From Vulcanimicrobiota bacterium (GTDB taxonomy: Bacteria > Vulcanimicrobiota > Vulcanimicrobiia > Vulcanimicrobiales > Vulcanimicrobiaceae): DNA of 64,000 nucleotides. Positions 823 through 58,282 of this stretch are shown here, piece after piece; positions within the stretch are counted from its first letter, which is position 1, and every line of letters starts with the position of its first letter. The notes beneath the pieces are model-generated. The model did not search any database. It saw nothing but the letters and a program-made list of their open reading frames with translations, and was not told the DNA's origin. The translations under genes were made by a program, and so were the position numbers. The stretch spans positions 124,001 through 188,000 of the forward strand of contig DAHUXH010000013.1 in assembly GCA_027307235.1 (NCBI GenBank), given 5' to 3'.

Positions 823-3660
823 CTACGTTTTCGCTGTGAGTGCGTCGTCGACGATCGCGCCGAGCCGGCGCAGCCCGGCCTCGAGTGCGCCGGAGATGAC
901 GATGCGAAGGCCGCGCCGTTTGCGGCTATCGAGTGCTTGGAAGTCGCCGATCGACTGTGCGTCGATCAGCGTGCGAAAACCGACGTTCATTCCGGGAATC
1001 ATCGGGTCGCCGGCGGCCTCGTGAACCAGTTGCAGCGTCACGATCGAGTCGGGCCCGCCCTTATGTAACTGTCCGGTGGAGTGTAAGAAGCGCGGTCCGA
1101 AACCGACCGTGGTCGCCACCTTCCGCGCATCGCGAATCTTCACGCGCAGGTCCCGCAGCAAGCGTTCGTGCGCGGCGTTGTGATCGAGGTAGGCGGTGAT
1201 CGCGACGTAGTCGCCGGAGCGAATCTGGGCGAGCACGTCGGCGAGGGCATCGGCCGGTGACGACGTGCGCGCGTTCGCACTTCCGGAGAGCAGCGCTAGC
1301 GCGAACGCGTCGTCGCGGGTGCCGATGCGCGGTTGCGGGAGCGCTCCCGTCGATGCGAACGTCGCCAGCAGCGCCTTCGTATTGTCCTTGGATTCTTGAA
1401 CGTTGGGTTGGTCGAACGGGTCGATGTGCAATAGCGCGCCGGCCGCTGCCGTCGCGATCTCCCAAAGATAGAATTGCTCGCCCAGATCGTAGGCGTCGTT
1501 GAGCGCTAAACGGATCACCGGATGTCCGGCCGCTTCAAGCGCCGCGATCGCGCTGTCGGTGGAAGGATCGCTCGCGGGCAGATGCGCGCCGACATAGACG
1601 AAGACGCGATCACTTCCGTACACGGACGGATCGCCGAGCGGTTCTCCCTCAATCGGAATGACACCGGTGCCGAGCTTTCCGGTTGATTCGGCGATCAGCT
1701 GTTCGCACCATTGACCGAACGCAGCGATGCGGGGATGCGTCACGATCGTGAGCTTGTCGCGGCCGGCCTTCGCGCACGCGCCGATCGCCGCGCCGAAGCG
1801 CGTGCCGGGCGCCGTGCGTACGTCGACGATCTTGTCGTTGGCGTGCATCGCTCCCAGACCGCGGTCGAGCAGCAGATTGACGTCGTACCCGGCGATCGCC
1901 GCCGGCAGCATGCCGAAGAACGAGAGCGCGGAGTAGCGTCCGCCGATGTTGGGGTCGTTCTCGTAGACCGCACGGAATCCGACGCTCTTGGCTTCCACGG
2001 CGAGCGCCGTTCCCGGATCGGTGATTGCGACGAAGTGAGCGGCGGCGTTGTGCGCGCCGATCTTCTTGGCGACCTTGTCGTAGAAGTAACGGTAGAAGGC
2101 ATCCGGTTCGGTGGTCGTGCCGCTCTTGCTCGCGACGATGAACAGGGTGCGCCCGATGTCGATCGACGCTTCGATGCCGGCGATTTGGTCGGGGTCGGTC
2201 GAGTCGAGGACGTGCAGGCGCGGATAGCCCTCGATCGTGCCGAGCGTCGCGCGCAGCACGTCGGGTGCAAGCGAACTGCCGCCCATGCCGAGAACGACCG
2301 CGTGCGTGAATTCAACTGCGGTGTCTTTCGCGAGCGCTTTGAGATTGCTCGACCACTCCAGCAGATGCTGCGCGATGTCGAGCCATCCCAAGGACTGCTT
2401 GATGATCGCCGCGTGCGCCGGGTCGTCGGACCACAAGGTGGTATCCTTTGCGCGCAGACGCTTGAGAAAGTCGGCGTTCGCCAAGGTGTCCAGCGCGCCG
2501 TCGAAAGCCGCTTGCAGGCTCCCGAGCGAAACGCTGACCCGCTCAGCGTTCGAACAAAGCTGCTTCTGTTTGTAGACGATGGCTCCGAGCAGCGCTGCGA
2601 AGGAGTCGTTGAACGATGCGACGCCCTCGACTTGCAGTTGGTGCATCACATCGAAGACTGAAATCTTCGCTTCGGCAAGCGCTTTCATGACGGCGCGCGC
2701 GTTGTCGAGATCGCTTTCGACGGTGTCCGGCACGATGACGCCGTGATCCATCAGCGCGTCGAGCGTCTGCGGAGGCATGGTGTTGACGGTCTCGCGCGCG
2801 ACGACGTTTTCGACGTACATCAACTCGGGATACTTGGGATTTTTCGTTGAGGTCGATGCCCACAGCGGGCGTTGAACGGTCGCTCCGGCCGCTCGCGCGC
2901 GCGCGAAGCGGTCGCCGTGGAAGAGTTCTTTGAATTTCGCGTAGGTCAGCTTGAGGTTCGCGATCCCCGCCTTGCCCAACAGATGATCGAGCCGCTCTCC
3001 TTTGGCGATGCGCTCGTTCACCAGCTTGTCGATCGCGGTGTCGATGCGGCTCACGAAGACGCTGTTGACCGAGCGGATCGCAGCGATCGGCTTGCCCTCG
3101 GCGATGCGGCGCTCGATTCCCTTGATGTAGGCAAGTGCCGTCTTTTCGTACATTTCGATGGAGAAGATCAGCGTGACGTTGATGTTGATGCCCGCATAGA
3201 TCGCTTCCTCGATGGCGGGCACGCCTTCGTTGGTACCGGGAATCTTCACCATGAGGTTGGGGCGGTTGATGCGCTGCCACAGATGTTTGGCTGCGGCGAT
3301 CGTGCCTTGCGTGTCGTGTGCCAGCAGCGGTGAGACCTCGATGCTGACAAACCCGTCGTTGCCGCCCGATGCGTCGAAGACCGGCCGGAACAGATCGCAG
3401 GCGCTCTCGATGTCGGCGATCGCGAGGTCCCAGAAGAGGGCGTCGGCGCTGCTCCCGGTGCCGATGAGCGAGCGCAGTTGCGCGTCGTAGTCGTCGCCCG
3501 TGCCGATCGCCTTCTCGAAAATCGTCGGGTTGCTGGTCATGCCGCGCAAGCCGCTGTCGATCAAGCGTTGCAGTTCGCCCGACGCGAACATGCTGCGGCG
3601 GAGATTGTCGAGCCATACGCTCTGACCGGCGTTGAGAAGGTGTTGCAATTGCTGGTTCAC
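823..3660 (-). CDS. tal-pgi: bifunctional transaldolase / glucose-6-phosphate isomerase
   Basis: A 945-aa fusion of two sugar-phosphate enzymes. Residues about 1-370 are transaldolase: SNPTIFEKAI near the N-terminus and the Schiff-base lysine in NLMVKIPGTNEG. Residues about 400-945 are phosphoglucose isomerase: GMGGSSLAPDVL and the sugar-phosphate loop SKSGTTTEP, with HIDPFDQPNVQESK further on. The fusion links the non-oxidative pentose phosphate branch to glycolysis in one polypeptide. Such Tal-Pgi fusions are known from several bacterial lineages. It sits 24 bp after tkt and 26 bp before gnd on the same strand, so co-transcription is likely. ATG start at 3660; no frameshift is visible at the junction. 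Confidence 0.95.
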   Translation of the reverse strand: MNQQLQHLLNAGQSVWLDNLRRSMFASGELQRLIDSGLRGMTSNPTIFEKAIGTGDDYDAQLRSLIGTGSSADALFWDLAIADIESACDLFRPVFDASGGNDGFVSIEVSPLLAHDTQGTIAAAKHLWQRINRPNLMVKIPGTNEGVPAIEEAIYAGININVTLIFSIEMYEKTALAYIKGIERRIAEGKPIAAIRSVNSVFVSRIDTAIDKLVNERIAKGERLDHLLGKAGIANLKLTYAKFKELFHGDRFARARAAGATVQRPLWASTSTKNPKYPELMYVENVVARETVNTMPPQTLDALMDHGVIVPDTVESDLDNARAVMKALAEAKISVFDVMHQLQVEGVASFNDSFAALLGAIVYKQKQLCSNAERVSVSLGSLQAAFDGALDTLANADFLKRLRAKDTTLWSDDPAHAAIIKQSLGWLDIAQHLLEWSSNLKALAKDTAVEFTHAVVLGMGGSSLAPDVLRATLGTIEGYPRLHVLDSTDPDQIAGIEASIDIGRTLFIVASKSGTTTEPDAFYRYFYDKVAKKIGAHNAAAHFVAITDPGTALAVEAKSVGFRAVYENDPNIGGRYSALSFFGMLPAAIAGYDVNLLLDRGLGAMHANDKIVDVRTAPGTRFGAAIGACAKAGRDKLTIVTHPRIAAFGQWCEQLIAESTGKLGTGVIPIEGEPLGDPSVYGSDRVFVYVGAHLPASDPSTDSAIAALEAAGHPVIRLALNDAYDLGEQFYLWEIATAAAGALLHIDPFDQPNVQESKDNTKALLATFASTGALPQPRIGTRDDAFALALLSGSANARTSSPADALADVLAQIRSGDYVAITAYLDHNAAHERLLRDLRVKIRDARKVATTVGFGPRFLHSTGQLHKGGPDSIVTLQLVHEAAGDPMIPGMNVGFRTLIDAQSIGDFQALDSRKRRGLRIVISGALEAGLRRLGAIVDDALTAKT

Positions 3661-15118: not shown

Positions 15119-18100
15119 GTGAAGGCTTACCGCGCTCAACTCGTTCTGATCGTCCTTGGCGGCTTGTTGCTTCGGCTGCTCTTCGTTACCAGCAACGGCT
15201 ACGCGAACGACGTGTCGTCATTCGAAAGTTGGGCGCTGACGTTTGTCGCGCACCCCTTCGCTCAGTTCTACTCGCACGTGTCGTTCGCGGACTATCCGCC
15301 CGGGTATTTCTACATACTCGGCGCGATCGGCGCGCTCTACACGCCGCTGCACGGCATCGACCCCGGCTACGGTCTGTTGAAAGTGCTCATCAAGATTCCG
15401 GCGATCGCAGCGGATTTAGGTGTCGGCGTGCTGCTGGCAACGATCGCGCGCCGCTTCACGAGCGAGCGCGGAGCGCTCGGCGTCGCGGCGTTGTATCTGT
15501 GGAATCCCGCGATCGTGCTGATCTCGGCGATGTGGGGACAGGTCGACTCGGTCTCGAGCGGTCTCGCGCTGTTGGGAGCCTGGTTGTTGCTGCACTCGCG
15601 CGGCCGCGGCGGCCGGGGGCTCGTGCTGCTCACGGTCGGCGCGTGGGTGGCACTGGCGTTTTCGCTGCTGATCAAGCCGCAGGCCGCAGTCCTGATTCCG
15701 CTCTTTGCGGCAGCGATTCTGCTCGATCCCGAACGCCGCAAAGAGCGCGTGCTCGCGACTGTGGCCGGTATCGCCGGCGCGCTCGTCTTCGCGCTGCTGG
15801 TCGTGCTGCCGTTCCACCCCACCGGCAATCCGCTCGACGCGTTCGCGTGGTTGTTCGACCGCTACACGATCGGCAAGAATGTCTATCCCTACAGTTCGGT
15901 CAATGCGTTCAACCTGTGGGCCGTCAAGGGCTCGATGTGGGTGCAGGATTCGCAAGAACTGGGGTTTTGGTTCTTGCGGTTCCCGATGTACGTGTGGGGC
16001 GTCGTCTTGGTGCTCGGCGCGACCATCCTGACACTGTGGCGATTCGTGCAGGTGCGAACCGAGCGCGCGTTCTTGGAAAGCGCGGCGCTGCTCTCGCTGG
16101 GGTTCTTCATGCTGGCGACTCGCATGCACGAGCGCTACGTCTTCGACGGGGTCCTGTTCGCGATCGCCGCCGTGCCTGCGGCGCGCCGGTATCTGTGGGC
16201 ATCGGTTGCGCTGTCATTCACGTTGTTCTGTAATCTGCTGTACGCGCTGCAATACCTGAACGCAGCGCAAGCGCAGACGCCCGGCGTCGATGCAGCCAAC
16301 TTGTGGGGCTTAGGCAACCATCTGCTCGCGCTGCTAAACGTCGGCGTGTTCTTTGTCCTCGGATATCTGTTCTTGGGCGATGACGCGGCGGCGCAGAGCG
16401 CGGTCAAGCCGCCGCCGTCCGACGAGCCGCTCATCGCGGCGGCGCGGCCGTGGTTCGATCCGCGCGAGGGGCTCGCGAGGATGCGCTGGCCGCTGGATTA
16501 TCTGGTGGCCGGCGCCATCGGCATCGTGTCGTTCCTGCTCTCGTTCGTCAACTATTGGAACCCAGGCAAAGAGATTTTTGACGAGGTGTACTTCGCGCGC
16601 GCGGGCGAGGAGTACCTGAGAAACCAATACATCTATGAATCGACGCATCCGCCGCTCACCAAGTTGATCATCACGCTCTCGATGATGCTCTTCGGCGGAA
16701 TCAAGCCCGGCACGCTCGGCGACACCGCGTATGGATGGCGATTTCTCGACGTGCTCTTCGGCGCGCTGGTGGTGGTGCTGCTCTATGCGTTCGCCAAACG
16801 GCTGACTCGCTCGACGCTCTTCTCTGCCATCGCCGCGTTGATGTTCACCTTCGACGGTATGCACTTCGTCCAGTCGCGCATCGCCACACCCGAGGGCATC
16901 GTCGTATTCTTCTCGGTAGCCGCCGTGTACGCGTTCTACCGCTTCTGGATCGCCTCGCAGGTAAACGTGCGCGCCAAGCTGCGCGACGGCGAGACCGTCG
17001 CGGCGCTATGCGCGGCGCTGGGCGCTATCGTGCTCGGTTTCGCCGTAAGCTGGTTCTTCGTGAGCGCGCTCGCCCATCAGTCGACCGCGGCGACCGTCGT
17101 GTGCGGCGTCTACTTCACGCTCGGGTTCTATCTCGCGGCGCGCTTGTGGGTGCTGCCGCGTGCGCTCGCGACCGCGACGCAGAGGGTTTCGTATCCGGAC
17201 GGATCGTTTGCCGACTGCACGGACGGCACGATCGCGATACAGACGCCCGACGGCGGGCGTCTGGATAGCTCCTCCAAGACGCCGGTGCGCGGCTCGCACA
17301 GCACCGGCAAGAACGGCATGCTCGTCTACGCCGACGACGATCTGACGATCGCGTATCGCCGCGACGCGACCGTGACCTACGAAACACCAGCCGCAAGCGC
17401 CGCCTTCACGCCGGGACGGATCGAAGCCGGCGGCTACGCGCAAGAGGGCAAACACGCGACGCTGTGGCTTGTCGTCTTCACCATCGCGCTCGGCGCGCTG
17501 GTCGCGAGTAAGTGGTACGGCGTCATGGGCTTCGGCGTGAGTTTCTTGGTGTTGAGCCTCGTGTGGCTGCAGCGCTGGTGGGCGAACGGGCGCGCGATGC
17601 TCTGGGGGAATCCGCGCGGCTTCCGGCTCGACGTGGCGCTGCCCGCGATCCTGTTCATCGCCGCCACCGTCTATGGGCTCGTCTACGTTCCCGATCTGGC
17701 ACGCGCGTCGTCGTGCCGGGACTGTGACATCCATAGCGTGAGCGATGCCGTGTATCACCAGTACGCGATGTTCGAATATCACGACACGCTCAAAGCCACG
17801 CATCCGTACGCGTCGCAGTGGTGGGAGTGGCCGATCGACACCAATCCCGTCGCTTACTTCTACGAAGATCATCGCGTCAATCCACGAGACGGAACGCAAT
17901 GCTGCGTCAACGAGATCACCTCGCTTCCAAATCCGGCCATCCTCTGGTTCGGCTTGTTCTGCGTGCCATTCGTCGGCGTTCTCGCTTGGCGGGAACGAAA
18001 CAAAGGCTATGCGCTGCTGGTGATCACGTATCTCTTGCAGTGGCTGCCGTGGATGCGCTCGCCCCGCATCACCTTCGCCTACCATTTCTACGTGAACGTT

Positions 18101-18334
18101 CCGCTGATCGTGCTCTGCAATGCCATTGTGCTGCAGCGTATCTGGCGCTGGGGAACGGCGGCCGATGCCCCCGCCGATCGGCTGTGGATGGCGCGGGCCG
18201 CCGTCGGCGGATACATGCTGCTCGTCGCCGGCCTCTTCGTCTATTTCTATCCGGTCCTGGCCGCGGTGCCGATGACCGGCGACGCCTGGAGCCATCGCAT
18301 GTGGTTCACATCGTGGATCAAAGGCCCGGGATAG
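15119..18334 (+). CDS. double GT-C membrane glycosyltransferase: N-terminal mannosyltransferase-like half fused to a PMT/GT39 half
   Basis: 1071 aa, GTG start eight bases after a perfect AGGAGG. Residues about 1-430 form one multi-pass GT-C unit with NDVSSFESW in the first loop and ADYPPGYFYILG, resembling bacterial polyprenyl-phosphate-sugar mannosyltransferases. A short proline-rich linker leads to a second unit from about 455. This has the protein O-mannosyltransferase signatures FDEVYFARAG and STHPPLTKL, and a C-terminal PMT-4TMC-like region ending SPRITFAYHFYVNVP. Residues about 690-770 form a soluble, probably beta-rich insert between membrane segments. Likely role: lipid-linked sugar transfer to extracytoplasmic proteins or glycans. 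Two complete GT-C modules in one chain are unusual. Confidence 0.85.
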   Translation: MKAYRAQLVLIVLGGLLLRLLFVTSNGYANDVSSFESWALTFVAHPFAQFYSHVSFADYPPGYFYILGAIGALYTPLHGIDPGYGLLKVLIKIPAIAADLGVGVLLATIARRFTSERGALGVAALYLWNPAIVLISAMWGQVDSVSSGLALLGAWLLLHSRGRGGRGLVLLTVGAWVALAFSLLIKPQAAVLIPLFAAAILLDPERRKERVLATVAGIAGALVFALLVVLPFHPTGNPLDAFAWLFDRYTIGKNVYPYSSVNAFNLWAVKGSMWVQDSQELGFWFLRFPMYVWGVVLVLGATILTLWRFVQVRTERAFLESAALLSLGFFMLATRMHERYVFDGVLFAIAAVPAARRYLWASVALSFTLFCNLLYALQYLNAAQAQTPGVDAANLWGLGNHLLALLNVGVFFVLGYLFLGDDAAAQSAVKPPPSDEPLIAAARPWFDPREGLARMRWPLDYLVAGAIGIVSFLLSFVNYWNPGKEIFDEVYFARAGEEYLRNQYIYESTHPPLTKLIITLSMMLFGGIKPGTLGDTAYGWRFLDVLFGALVVVLLYAFAKRLTRSTLFSAIAALMFTFDGMHFVQSRIATPEGIVVFFSVAAVYAFYRFWIASQVNVRAKLRDGETVAALCAALGAIVLGFAVSWFFVSALAHQSTAATVVCGVYFTLGFYLAARLWVLPRALATATQRVSYPDGSFADCTDGTIAIQTPDGGRLDSSSKTPVRGSHSTGKNGMLVYADDDLTIAYRRDATVTYETPAASAAFTPGRIEAGGYAQEGKHATLWLVVFTIALGALVASKWYGVMGFGVSFLVLSLVWLQRWWANGRAMLWGNPRGFRLDVALPAILFIAATVYGLVYVPDLARASSCRDCDIHSVSDAVYHQYAMFEYHDTLKATHPYASQWWEWPIDTNPVAYFYEDHRVNPRDGTQCCVNEITSLPNPAILWFGLFCVPFVGVLAWRERNKGYALLVITYLLQWLPWMRSPRITFAYHFYVNVPLIVLCNAIVLQRIWRWGTAADAPADRLWMARAAVGGYMLLVAGLFVYFYPVLAAVPMTGDAWSHRMWFTSWIKGPG

Positions 18335-52865: not shown

Positions 52866-55031
52866 TTACGGAAGCGTGGCTAGACGTTCCAGCTCGTGCG
52901 AGGGCGCGGTGCCGAGCTCGACCTGCAACGTATGGCGGCACTCGCGCATCAGCCGGGCGATGGCGACGCGGTCTCCGCGCAGCCGGTTGGCGCGGATTGC
53001 AATCGCGTAGCCGGCCTCGTCGGTGCCGTCGAGCCGGATCAGTTCCGCGCTGATCGCCAGGGCTTGGTCCGGGTCGTGCCGTTCGACGTACCAGAGGCCG
53101 AGGCGCTCCAGGAATGCACGCCGCAACTGCTCCAGGGTGCGTGCGTGCGGCATGAACCACTCGTGCGCGAGCAACGATTGCGCAAGCGGATGGGCCAGTT
53201 CCGATCGGAGTTCGGTGATCGCCTCGGGGGCCGCGGTCGCGAAGCCGCTCGCGCTCGCGAGACGCTGGAGGTCGCGAACGTCGACGCCGACGGCGGGGTT
53301 CAGGCGGTAACCGCCGCGGATCGATTCGATCGCCTCGGCGCCCAGCTTCCGCCGCAAGCGTGAAAGGTTTGCGTAGAGCGAATTGGCACCGTGTGTTTCG
53401 TCGACATCCGGCCAGATCGTCGCGATAATCGAGGATGCCGGCAGTGTCTTCTCATATAGCGCCAGCAGCGCGACGAGCTCAAATTCTCGCTTGGTCAGTC
53501 CGATCGGGCGGCCGTTCTTGGTACACGTCGCGGCGAAAACCGACAGCCGCATCGGCGGCAGTGTTGCCGGTGATTCCGGACGTTCGTACAGCACGATCGA
53601 GAAGCCATGCACGCGATGCGTGCGTTCGGAGCGCACCAGCGAAACGCGCGCGCCAGCCGCGAACGTCGATCCGTCGGCTCGATACAGGCGCAGGTTCAGC
53701 GGACACGGCTGCTGCGCTGATTTTAGGATTGATCGAAGGAAACGTTGCGTCGAGGAGCCGCGTTCGGCCAGGAGATCGGCGAAGGTCAGCCCGACGACCG
53801 TGTTTCCCGGGCCGCATCCGAACAAACAATTTGCAAGAGGGGTCGCGAACACAATGACGCCGGTGCGATCGACGTGCACGATGCTCTCCGGCAGACGCTC
53901 GACGATCCGGCTCAAGCTCCGTTCGATGCGCAGCCGGTCGCCGACCGCGAGCGAGAGCAATAGCGCTTCGGAAGCCGTTCCAAGCTCGACAGCATGTTCG
54001 AACAACGGCTGCGCGATCCCGAATATCCATTGCAGCATCGATAAGGTCGCGAAGATGATGAGCACCGGAAAACTGACGAGATAAAAACGCGCAGGACGCA
54101 AACCCGCGCGTGCGCGCAGGATCGCTGCCGACAACACGAGTACGGCTTGCGCGAAAAAGAACGTGATATCCGCGACGTGGTGGGGATCGATGTCAATGTG
54201 GGCTGTCGCACCGGCTGCCAGTGCGAGAAGCGGATACGCCACGATGCCGGCGGCCGCGACGACGATGCCCAGGTCATGTTTGGGAAGAAAACGCCGCGTT
54301 CCCAGAAACGACCGGCAAAAAAATCCGTGGAGGCCGACCGTGACGACGAAAAACCAGTATTCGCTCTGCGCATCGTTCCATGCCGCCCTCGGCCACGCGA
54401 TCTCCCAGGCGAAGTTCGTTCGAATCAGCTGATAGCACAGCAGTCCGGCGAGATGCGCGACATACCACGCGACGTGTCTCTCGCGCGTGACCGCGACGAT
54501 CAGTGCGTTGGAGAGCAAGAGCGCCAAGATCAAACCGAAATAGAGCGGAAGAAGGATGTGCCCGAATCCCTGCGTTGCGAGCTTCGAGCCGGTTTGCACG
54601 ATGAAACAGCCGTCACCGGCGGCGCCGGGCGTCATCTCGATCGAGACCACGAGCGTGCGACCATCGAGTGGATTGGCGAGCGCGAGCGCCGGCGGACCGA
54701 AGTAGGTCGAAGCTCCGTGCATCGGGATACGGCGTTCGAACGCGATCGGAGTGCGGGCGCCGCGCTCGTAAAGAGCGGCACGTGCAGCCGTTTGCGGTGC
54801 GATGACGTACAGGGGATCGCCGGTCACCGGATGGACCGTGAGAGCGAACCATCGCAAAGCACCGGCGGATGTTCCCGGAGGCGGCGTCGCCATGCGCGTG
54901 ACGACCGAGCCGGCTCCCATCGTGTGCGTCGTGCAGCCCGCCGGTGAACGCACCAGCGTTTGCGCGTACGCTCGTCCGCAGAGGAGCACCGCGATCGTGA
55001 GCACCCCTCCGACGATCGATGCGCGTGGCAT
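52866..55031 (-). CDS. membrane-anchored one-component regulator: 7TM sensor, PAS, OmpR-type winged helix and BTAD (SARP-like)
   Basis: 721 aa from ATG 55031. Residues 1-24 are a signal peptide and 25-155 an extracytoplasmic domain. Six to seven membrane helices span about 156-364, the layout of 7TM-DISM sensors. A PAS-like domain covers about 370-485 (RIVERLPESIVHVDRTGVIV). Residues 493-580 are a winged helix (LTKREFELVALLALYEK; NSLYANLSRLRRKLGAE; IRGGYRLNP). Residues about 600-721 form a BTAD-like helical domain (ALAISAELIRLDGTDEAGY; MRECRHTLQVELGTAPSHEL). The DNA-binding part thus belongs to the SARP group but is tethered to the membrane. Signal and targets are unknown. Confidence 0.82.
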   Translation of the reverse strand: MPRASIVGGVLTIAVLLCGRAYAQTLVRSPAGCTTHTMGAGSVVTRMATPPPGTSAGALRWFALTVHPVTGDPLYVIAPQTAARAALYERGARTPIAFERRIPMHGASTYFGPPALALANPLDGRTLVVSIEMTPGAAGDGCFIVQTGSKLATQGFGHILLPLYFGLILALLLSNALIVAVTRERHVAWYVAHLAGLLCYQLIRTNFAWEIAWPRAAWNDAQSEYWFFVVTVGLHGFFCRSFLGTRRFLPKHDLGIVVAAAGIVAYPLLALAAGATAHIDIDPHHVADITFFFAQAVLVLSAAILRARAGLRPARFYLVSFPVLIIFATLSMLQWIFGIAQPLFEHAVELGTASEALLLSLAVGDRLRIERSLSRIVERLPESIVHVDRTGVIVFATPLANCLFGCGPGNTVVGLTFADLLAERGSSTQRFLRSILKSAQQPCPLNLRLYRADGSTFAAGARVSLVRSERTHRVHGFSIVLYERPESPATLPPMRLSVFAATCTKNGRPIGLTKREFELVALLALYEKTLPASSIIATIWPDVDETHGANSLYANLSRLRRKLGAEAIESIRGGYRLNPAVGVDVRDLQRLASASGFATAAPEAITELRSELAHPLAQSLLAHEWFMPHARTLEQLRRAFLERLGLWYVERHDPDQALAISAELIRLDGTDEAGYAIAIRANRLRGDRVAIARLMRECRHTLQVELGTAPSHELERLATLP

Positions 55032-55114
55032 GACTGCCCGTTCTACGGCGGAGCGGGCAAGGCCCACACTCCAGAGAGGCGCCGGGTGCGTTCGTGGGCG
55101 AACCTTCACCATCC

Positions 55115-56364: not shown

Positions 56365-57204
56365 GTGTCGGCTGTACCCATCTCCGAAACGGAGTTCGCG
56401 CAACTGCGCGATCTCATCCGCGAACGCTTCGGCATTTATTACGACGACACCAAGCAGTTCTTGCTGCAGAGCCGCTTGCAGACGCGTTTGCTCAAATGCG
56501 GCATCGACTCATTTGCGGCATACTGCCGCTTTCTCGTCGTCGATCCGCGGCGCGAGAACGAATGGAGTGAACTCGCGTCGGTCCTCTCCAATAATGAAAC
56601 GTATTTTTTCCGTGAGCGCTCGCAACTCGATATCCTAGCCAACGAGGTGGTGGGCGATGCGCTCAAGAGCGGCGGGCGGCTGCGCGTGTGGTCGGCCGCC
56701 TGCTCTACGGGCGAGGAGCCGCTGTCGCTCGCCATGACGTTGCTTGAGAGCCGGCGCATCGGTCCGGCGGCCATCACGATCAAAGCCGGAGATCTGTCAC
56801 CGCGTGCCTTGGAAAAGGCGGGTGCCGGCTTCTATCGCGAGCTGTCGTTTCGCGCGACGCCCGTCAACATGGTTCAGAAGTATTTCCGGCCGTTTGACAA
56901 CGGGTTTTCGATCAAGGAAGAGGTGAAGCGAATGGTGGAGTTCTTTCGCATCAACCTGATCGACCCGGAGGCCGTCGCGGCGGTCGGCGTGATGGATGCC
57001 ATCTTCTGCCGCAACGTCCTGATCTATTTCGATAAGCCGACGCAGAAAACGGTGGTTCAAAATTTCGCACGCGTTCTGCGCCCCGGGGGCTATCTGTTCT
57101 TGGGACATGCGGAGTCGATCATGCGCCTGACCGATCTCTACGAACCCGTGGTGACCGATAGCGCCATCTACTACCGATTGAAAATGAATCATGCAGCAGA
57201 TTAG
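56365..57204 (+). CDS. cheR: chemotaxis protein methyltransferase CheR
   Basis: 279 aa. N-terminal helical domain (FAQLRDLIRERFGIYYDDTK), then NNETYFFRE, the SAM motif VWSAACSTGEEPLSLAM and FCRNVLIYFD, followed by GGYLFLGHAESI. Methylates glutamates of chemoreceptors. GTG start; overlaps cheB by 14 bp. No CheA/CheW is visible in the window. Confidence 0.95.
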   Translation: MSAVPISETEFAQLRDLIRERFGIYYDDTKQFLLQSRLQTRLLKCGIDSFAAYCRFLVVDPRRENEWSELASVLSNNETYFFRERSQLDILANEVVGDALKSGGRLRVWSAACSTGEEPLSLAMTLLESRRIGPAAITIKAGDLSPRALEKAGAGFYRELSFRATPVNMVQKYFRPFDNGFSIKEEVKRMVEFFRINLIDPEAVAAVGVMDAIFCRNVLIYFDKPTQKTVVQNFARVLRPGGYLFLGHAESIMRLTDLYEPVVTDSAIYYRLKMNHAAD

Positions 57205-58282
57205 AGTTCTCGTCGTCGACGACTCCGCGTTCATGCGGCGCGCCATCACCAAAATGCTCGAGAGCGAACCCGAGATCACGGTGTGCGCCACGGCGCGCAA
57301 CGGTGAAGATGCGGTGAACAAGGCGCTCGCGGAGCGTCCCGACATCATTACGATGGACGTAGAGATGCCCGGCATCGGGGGACTCGAGGCGGTGCGCGAG
57401 ATCGTCGCGCAACACAAGGTGCCGATCATCATGGTCAGCGCATTGACGCGTGAGGGCGCGGACACGACCTTCCGCGCGCTTGAAGCCGGCGCCGTCGACT
57501 TCATTCCGAAACCCGACTCCGCTTACGTGAATATCGGCGACGTTGCGCGCGATCTGATCGCGAAGGTCCGCACGTTCGCGCGGCGCGGTGCGCAACCGCT
57601 CGCCGGGCACCGGACCGACGTTTCCGCGCTCCGGCCGGAACCTCAGCGCCGCGTCGACGTCGTCGTCGAGCCGGTTCGCGAGCGCGGCGCGCGCTCGCGG
57701 TATGACGTGGTCGCCATCGGAACCTCGACCGGCGGTCCGGTAGCGCTCTCACGTTTGGTTCCGGCGTTGCCGGAGCATTTCGCGACCCCGATGATCATCG
57801 TGCAGCATATGCCGCTCGGGTTCACGCGACCACTGGCCGAACGCTTGAATTCGCTGAGCAAAGTGCACGTGCGCGAGGCCGAGGAGGGCATGACCGTGCA
57901 AGCGGGTGTCGCGTTGATCATTCCGTCGGGAAAGCAGGTGCGTTTGCAGCGCACGAGCGGCGAGGTCACGGTGCATCTGCGTGACGACGACGGCAAGGCG
58001 CTCCACGTGCCGAGTGTCGACGTGATGACCGAGACGGTCTCCGACATGTATGGCTCCGCCGCCATCGGCGTCATCATGACCGGGATGGGACAAGACGGCG
58101 TGACGGGATTGCGGCGCCTCAAAGAGCGCGGCGGCTACGTGATCGGTCAAGATGAAGCGACATGCGTCGTGTACGGTATGCCGCGCGCGGCAGCACGGGC
58201 CGGTTTGGTGGACCGTGTCGCGCCGCTCGATCATATTCCGGGAATTCTGTGCGACTTGACCGGATCGATCGCCCCGCGCTAG
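57191..58282 (+). CDS. cheB: protein-glutamate methylesterase/glutaminase CheB
   Basis: 363 aa. Response-regulator receiver (VLVVDDSAFMRR; phospho-acceptor in IITMDVEMPGIGG; lysine in DFIPKPD), a linker rich in Arg/Val/Pro, then the esterase domain with GTSTGGP (catalytic Ser), QHMPLGFT (His) and MTGMGQDG (Asp). Removes methyl groups added by CheR; coupled translationally to it. Confidence 0.96.
   Translation: MQQIRVLVVDDSAFMRRAITKMLESEPEITVCATARNGEDAVNKALAERPDIITMDVEMPGIGGLEAVREIVAQHKVPIIMVSALTREGADTTFRALEAGAVDFIPKPDSAYVNIGDVARDLIAKVRTFARRGAQPLAGHRTDVSALRPEPQRRVDVVVEPVRERGARSRYDVVAIGTSTGGPVALSRLVPALPEHFATPMIIVQHMPLGFTRPLAERLNSLSKVHVREAEEGMTVQAGVALIIPSGKQVRLQRTSGEVTVHLRDDDGKALHVPSVDVMTETVSDMYGSAAIGVIMTGMGQDGVTGLRRLKERGGYVIGQDEATCVVYGMPRAAARAGLVDRVAPLDHIPGILCDLTGSIAPR

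Follow-up and report, generated by a model that had tools for sequence, protein, structure and literature searches.

A conserved, narrowly distributed regulator of Vulcanimicrobiota that combines a 7TMR-DISM receptor with a SARP-type winged helix-BTAD module

Results

Gene and domain architecture

The DNA analysed here (the window) is a stretch of 64,000 nucleotides from a Vulcanimicrobiota bacterium. An open frame of 721 codons with an ATG start occupies window positions 52866-55031 on the minus strand. ORF reading, Pfam searches, alignment and modelling describe its product as a 721-aa regulator in which an outer domain, a seven-helix membrane (7TM) domain, a PAS domain, a winged helix and a BTAD (activation domain) follow one another. 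An intergenic gap (55032-55114) precedes a divergent gene. The preliminary description of the region had this divergent gene as an isoprenoid reductase and named a pyrophosphatase as the other neighbour; the latter assignment stands (an H+-pyrophosphatase), the former is corrected to an FAD oxidoreductase, and neither gene adjoins the orthologs described below. Downstream of the oxidoreductase gene, positions 56365-58282 (plus strand) hold two adjoining CheR-like and CheB-like frames. Elsewhere in the window, a 945-aa frame at 823-3660 (minus strand) resembles a transaldolase joined to a glucose-6-phosphate isomerase, and a 1071-aa frame at 15119-18334 (plus strand) has two membrane glycosyltransferase-like halves. 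These frames were read from their translations alone.

The modules of the regulator, all on the minus strand, succeed each other as follows. Residues 1-23 (54963-55031) form a predicted signal peptide, on the basis of the sequence, of hydropathy and of a modelled helix at residues 2-17; to the eye, the N-terminal MPRASIVGGVLTIAVLLCGRAYA-QT resembles a Sec signal peptide. Residues 24-155 (54567-54962) constitute an extracytoplasmic domain with a beta fold in the model of an ortholog. The 7TMR-DISM_7TM domain (residues 156-368; 53928-54566) was matched by Pfam PF07695 at residues 161-366 (E 5e-25, 89 bits against a cut-off of 29). A linker and the PAS domain (residues 369-485; 53577-53927) come next, with PF00989 matched at residues 373-472 (E 9e-6), then an OmpR/PhoB-type winged helix (residues 494-577; 53301-53552), with Trans_reg_C (PF00486) at residues 507-577 (E 1e-7), and directly after it the BTAD (residues 584-719; 52875-53282), with PF03704 at residues 589-718 (E 8e-5). 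Thus, all four families, 7TMR-DISM_7TM, PAS, Trans_reg_C and BTAD in that order, exceeded their Pfam gathering cut-offs.

Structure models and membrane orientation

The AlphaFold2 model of the window protein showed seven long helices across residues 156-378 (156-182, 185-204, 221-243, 249-277, 283-308, 315-337 and 347-378), a PAS domain at 383-483, the winged helix at 494-577 and an all-helical BTAD at 584-719. Confidence was modest for the model as a whole (mean pLDDT 66.7), but the winged helix and BTAD were modelled with high confidence. Clusters of Arg and Lys residues follow helices 1, 3, 5 and 7 in the hydropathy analysis. These clusters and the seven-helix model both fit an orientation with the N-terminus outside and the C-terminus inside, and with PAS, winged helix and BTAD as cytoplasmic modules after the last membrane helix. 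The seventh helix extends to residue 378, and this extension would be a signalling helix.

In fold comparisons, residues 488-721 of the model matched AfsR (Z 18.8, rmsd 3.3, 231 residues) and EmbR (Z 17.4), and residues 381-486 matched known PAS folds. The outer domain was examined in the model of an ortholog from the related genus g24 (pLDDT 70.6). Its best match was the periplasmic domain of RetS, with a Foldseek probability of 0.99 but an E value of 0.035, and a Z score of 6.3 that is level with those of other beta sandwiches. No Pfam family, DISMED1 and DISMED2 included, matched the outer domain of the window protein or of the aligned orthologs. The modelled domain is best called weakly RetS-like; this is compatible with a DISMED2 domain, short of proof.

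Conservation and distribution

Within the phylum (Ca. Eremiobacterota/Vulcanimicrobiota), 149 genomes were searched with a full-length profile, and 11 of them, all from one family, have full-length orthologs with the identical domain order: one in the genus of the window, nine in g24 and one in g27. Ten sequences align from end to end, and all ten match 7TMR-DISM_7TM, Trans_reg_C and BTAD, nine of them also matching PAS models. With the other orthologs, the window protein shares no more than about 32% identity. Across five ortholog pairs, dN/dS ranged from 0.08 to 0.38 in each domain; the 7TM part is the best conserved (0.08-0.14), and the PAS and outer parts gave the highest ratios. These values indicate that the architecture evolves under purifying selection. 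Conservation is weakest in the PAS region and in the linkers that join it to the 7TM domain and the winged helix. The alignment places one invariant Cys (position 142) in the outer domain and no conserved Cys or His in the PAS domain.

A scan of genome contigs with the single window protein returned no relatives, and the same scan with the alignment as query returned five. Beyond the phylum the search covered peptide patterns and plasmids; tblastn matches on plasmids were confined to the BTAD region. Ten of the order's 30 best 7TMR-DISM loci bear the winged helix signature. Because the remaining twenty all carry GGDEF, the architecture represents a swap of the output module. In a tree, the winged helix-BTADs of the membrane type group in one clade (SH-aLRT 97).

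The preliminary description had claimed a 7TM sensor, PAS and winged helix-BTAD in one chain, and had proposed structure prediction and a search for the same architecture in other genomes as ways to check it. The model does show PAS and BTAD folds, the search found the architecture in three genera (11 of 149 genomes), and Pfam agrees with both. Thus, the architecture is real, conserved and narrowly distributed.

Positions equivalent to the DNA contacts of AfsR

AfsR contacts DNA through W74, S91, R92, R94 and K95, as well as through T88, which contacts a base (PMC10936776). Transfer of these positions to the window protein by HMMER alignment equated W74, S91, R92 and R94 with the invariant W540, S557, R558 and R560, and K95 with R/K561. 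The position of T88 is occupied by Ala554 in the window protein and by Thr in the nine other aligned sequences. The recognition helix (residues 549-563; 53343-53387, minus strand), delimited by alignment with AfsR and the orthologs, reads LYANLSRLRRKL in the window protein and LQTTISRLRKKL in the orthologs. By this alignment, the recognition helix of the window protein departs from that of its orthologs.

A candidate operator in two related genera

Binding at 55032-55114, the gap upstream of the window gene, had been proposed earlier. This proposal found no support: no SARP-type 11-bp direct repeat was found in the gap, and the candidate operator described here is absent from the genome of the window.

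The g24 regulator gene is transcribed away from a gene for a lipoprotein, and this lipoprotein matches beta-propeller repeats. Alignment of the intergenic region from eight g24 genomes revealed a conserved block: 27 of its 34 columns are invariant, whereas the flank toward the regulator has 13-18 such columns. The candidate operator in g24 and g27 is a direct repeat with 11-bp spacing, STAAGGnnnATGTAAGRT, whose halves recur at 11 bp; the g27 form is GTAAG-N6-GTAAG. We searched 103 genomes of the order for STAAGGnnnATGTAAGATC with at most one mismatch and found 13 sites: nine g24 genomes have one apiece, and g27 has four. The site was absent from the other 93 genomes, that of the window included, and is thus confined to regulator-bearing genomes among the 103; a search with the reversed pattern gave no match in the same set. 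Two additional, weaker sites with two mismatches, in G080 and G083, have unrelated reading frames around them and were discounted.

The site lies 47 bp (g24) and 49 bp (g27) upstream of the regulator. In g27, where the regulator and lipoprotein genes are unlinked, a second copy lies before the gene for the lipoprotein ortholog, which is 56% identical to the g24 lipoprotein over 295 residues, and a third precedes a gene run that includes an exported beta-propeller protein. A TAnnnT motif (background 0.5%) starts exactly 8 bp past the repeat at the g24 lipoprotein gene, at the g27 lipoprotein gene and at the third g27 site. In published SARP promoters, direct repeats are spaced at 11 or 22 bp and the 3' repeat lies 8 bp from the -10 element (PMC10936776); the TAnnnT spacing at these three promoters, whose sites are non-orthologous, matches this geometry. 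The g24 copies are orthologous and were therefore counted as one case. The lipoprotein genes of g24 and g27 are themselves orthologs, although their flanks and TAnnnT letters differ, so the promoters amount to at least two and at most three independent cases. In g27, TAnnnT is missing at +8 from half of the four sites: that of the regulator itself and a fourth site (L158:997-1015, G026:C11), which also has no clear target gene. Scans of the upstream regions for sigma-70 promoters gave no matches. Judged by where these sites lie, the regulator of g24 and g27 is likely to target its own operon as well as exported beta-propeller proteins.

A short SARP encoded downstream

Outside the window, nine loci have sequence that extends past the regulator gene, and each of the nine has a gene for a winged helix-BTAD protein of 240-250 aa just downstream of it, in some cases within 36 bp. 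The short SARPs form a clade of their own, apart from the membrane-type proteins. When one of the short SARPs served as query against the window's genome, no such gene was found beside the regulator; the search returned larger SARP-type proteins, the regulator itself and a weak match in a 280-aa frame. Two large SARP-type proteins of this genome (L036:1021-3873 and L037:1455-4223) have a C-terminal winged helix-BTAD after an N-terminal AAA-type region, the reverse of the domain order of AfsR.

The short soluble SARP is a probable co-regulator in g24 and g27, and it, instead of the membrane protein, may be what binds the site. Taken further, the short SARP would be the true DNA binder in these genera, and the membrane protein would merely switch it, through heterodimerisation or sequestration. 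The constancy of the partner gene, its separate clade and the joint lack of partner and site in the window's genome speak for this explanation. Against it, the membrane protein keeps the DNA-contact residues of AfsR, and the window's regulator persists with no partner beside its gene. On balance, we regard it as rather unlikely.

Discussion

The protein is probably a transmembrane one-component regulator that senses through its 7TM unit and activates transcription by the SARP route through its winged helix-BTAD. The one-component reading had been put forward in the preliminary description and is now backed by the Pfam matches, the model, the occurrence of the architecture across three genera and the retained DNA-contact residues. 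From the computed domain order, fold matches, conservation, contact residues and site-gene association we infer how it would work, including sensing, direction of control, dimerisation, action within the membrane and which SARP binds the site. An extracytoplasmic cue would be sensed by the RetS-like outer domain together with the 7TM unit, and the signal would travel along the long helix that follows TM7 and on through the PAS domain. The C-terminal winged helix-BTAD, as a side-by-side pair, would then bind direct repeats spaced at 11 bp and recruit RNA polymerase in the manner of AfsR. In g24 and g27, control would extend to the regulator's own operon and to exported beta-propeller genes, with the short SARP encoded downstream as co-regulator. 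This fuller scheme, in which a membrane-held 7TM receptor binds 11-bp direct repeats, recruits RNA polymerase SARP-style and, with a soluble SARP of the same operon, controls surface beta-propeller proteins, is offered tentatively, as a possibility that falls short of being probable.

Bacteria commonly resort to regulated proteolysis, and the DNA-binding half might become active only once a protease cuts between TM7 and the PAS domain or winged helix. The poor conservation of the linkers and the poor modelling of residues 485-490 would suit such a cut. However, the modelled chain runs as a continuous helix and fold through the linker and PAS domain, like 7TMR-DISM proteins that signal while intact, and the orthologs have no dedicated protease gene as a recurrent neighbour, although Lon adjoins the g24 operon; cleavage thus seems improbable. 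That the chain is an assembly artefact or a decayed, functionless fusion is scarcely conceivable: the genomes named in sequence records are metagenome assemblies, but the order is identical in 11 genomes of three genera and dN/dS is well below 1 in all domains.

The protein brings together parts of 7TMR-DISM receptors and of SARP activators, both well-studied families, so that a single chain could both sense outside the cell and turn on genes. If the fuller scheme is true, it would be a pathway from receptor to promoter that uses no kinase or second messenger. A concrete candidate operator and likely targets are available from g24 and g27; therefore, how a membrane-held activator reaches its promoter can be tested with a short defined site.

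RgsP of Sinorhizobium is a 7TMR-DISM receptor in which an outer DISMED2 domain is followed by 7TM, PAS, GGDEF and EAL (PMC6107284). As in RgsP and RetS, the protein described here has a 7TM domain above the Pfam cut-off and a cytoplasmic PAS domain; its outer N-terminal domain has RetS as the best though weak fold match. Where these receptors signal through a kinase or a c-di-GMP enzyme, the protein described here carries a DNA-binding activator module, and its outer domain has no Pfam DISMED match. A precedent for a 7TMR-DISM receptor joined to a DNA-binding domain is the ChiS family (PMC8092284), which likewise carries the latter at the C-terminus of the same chain; that family, described in proteobacteria, differs in having an unrelated DNA-binding domain and no BTAD.

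With the SARPs AfsR (8hvr, 8k60) and EmbR (2fez) the protein shares a winged helix followed by a BTAD, the fold (Z 17-19) and the DNA-contact residues, and candidate sites at three promoters of g24 and g27 show the SARP promoter geometry. The SARP part is C-terminal and membrane-linked here, whereas that of AfsR is N-terminal in a protein that also has NOD and TPR parts. The groups of SARPs listed in a review include no membrane class (PMC10972967), and a literature search covering few subscription journals found no paper on a membrane SARP. An OmpR-type winged helix within a membrane one-component protein is also a feature of ToxR and CadC. These, however, have an N-terminal winged helix, one membrane helix, a C-terminal outer sensor and no BTAD, in contrast to the seven helices and C-terminal winged helix of the window protein. 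The combination is best described as a variant of two known kinds, the 7TMR-DISM receptor and the SARP activator.
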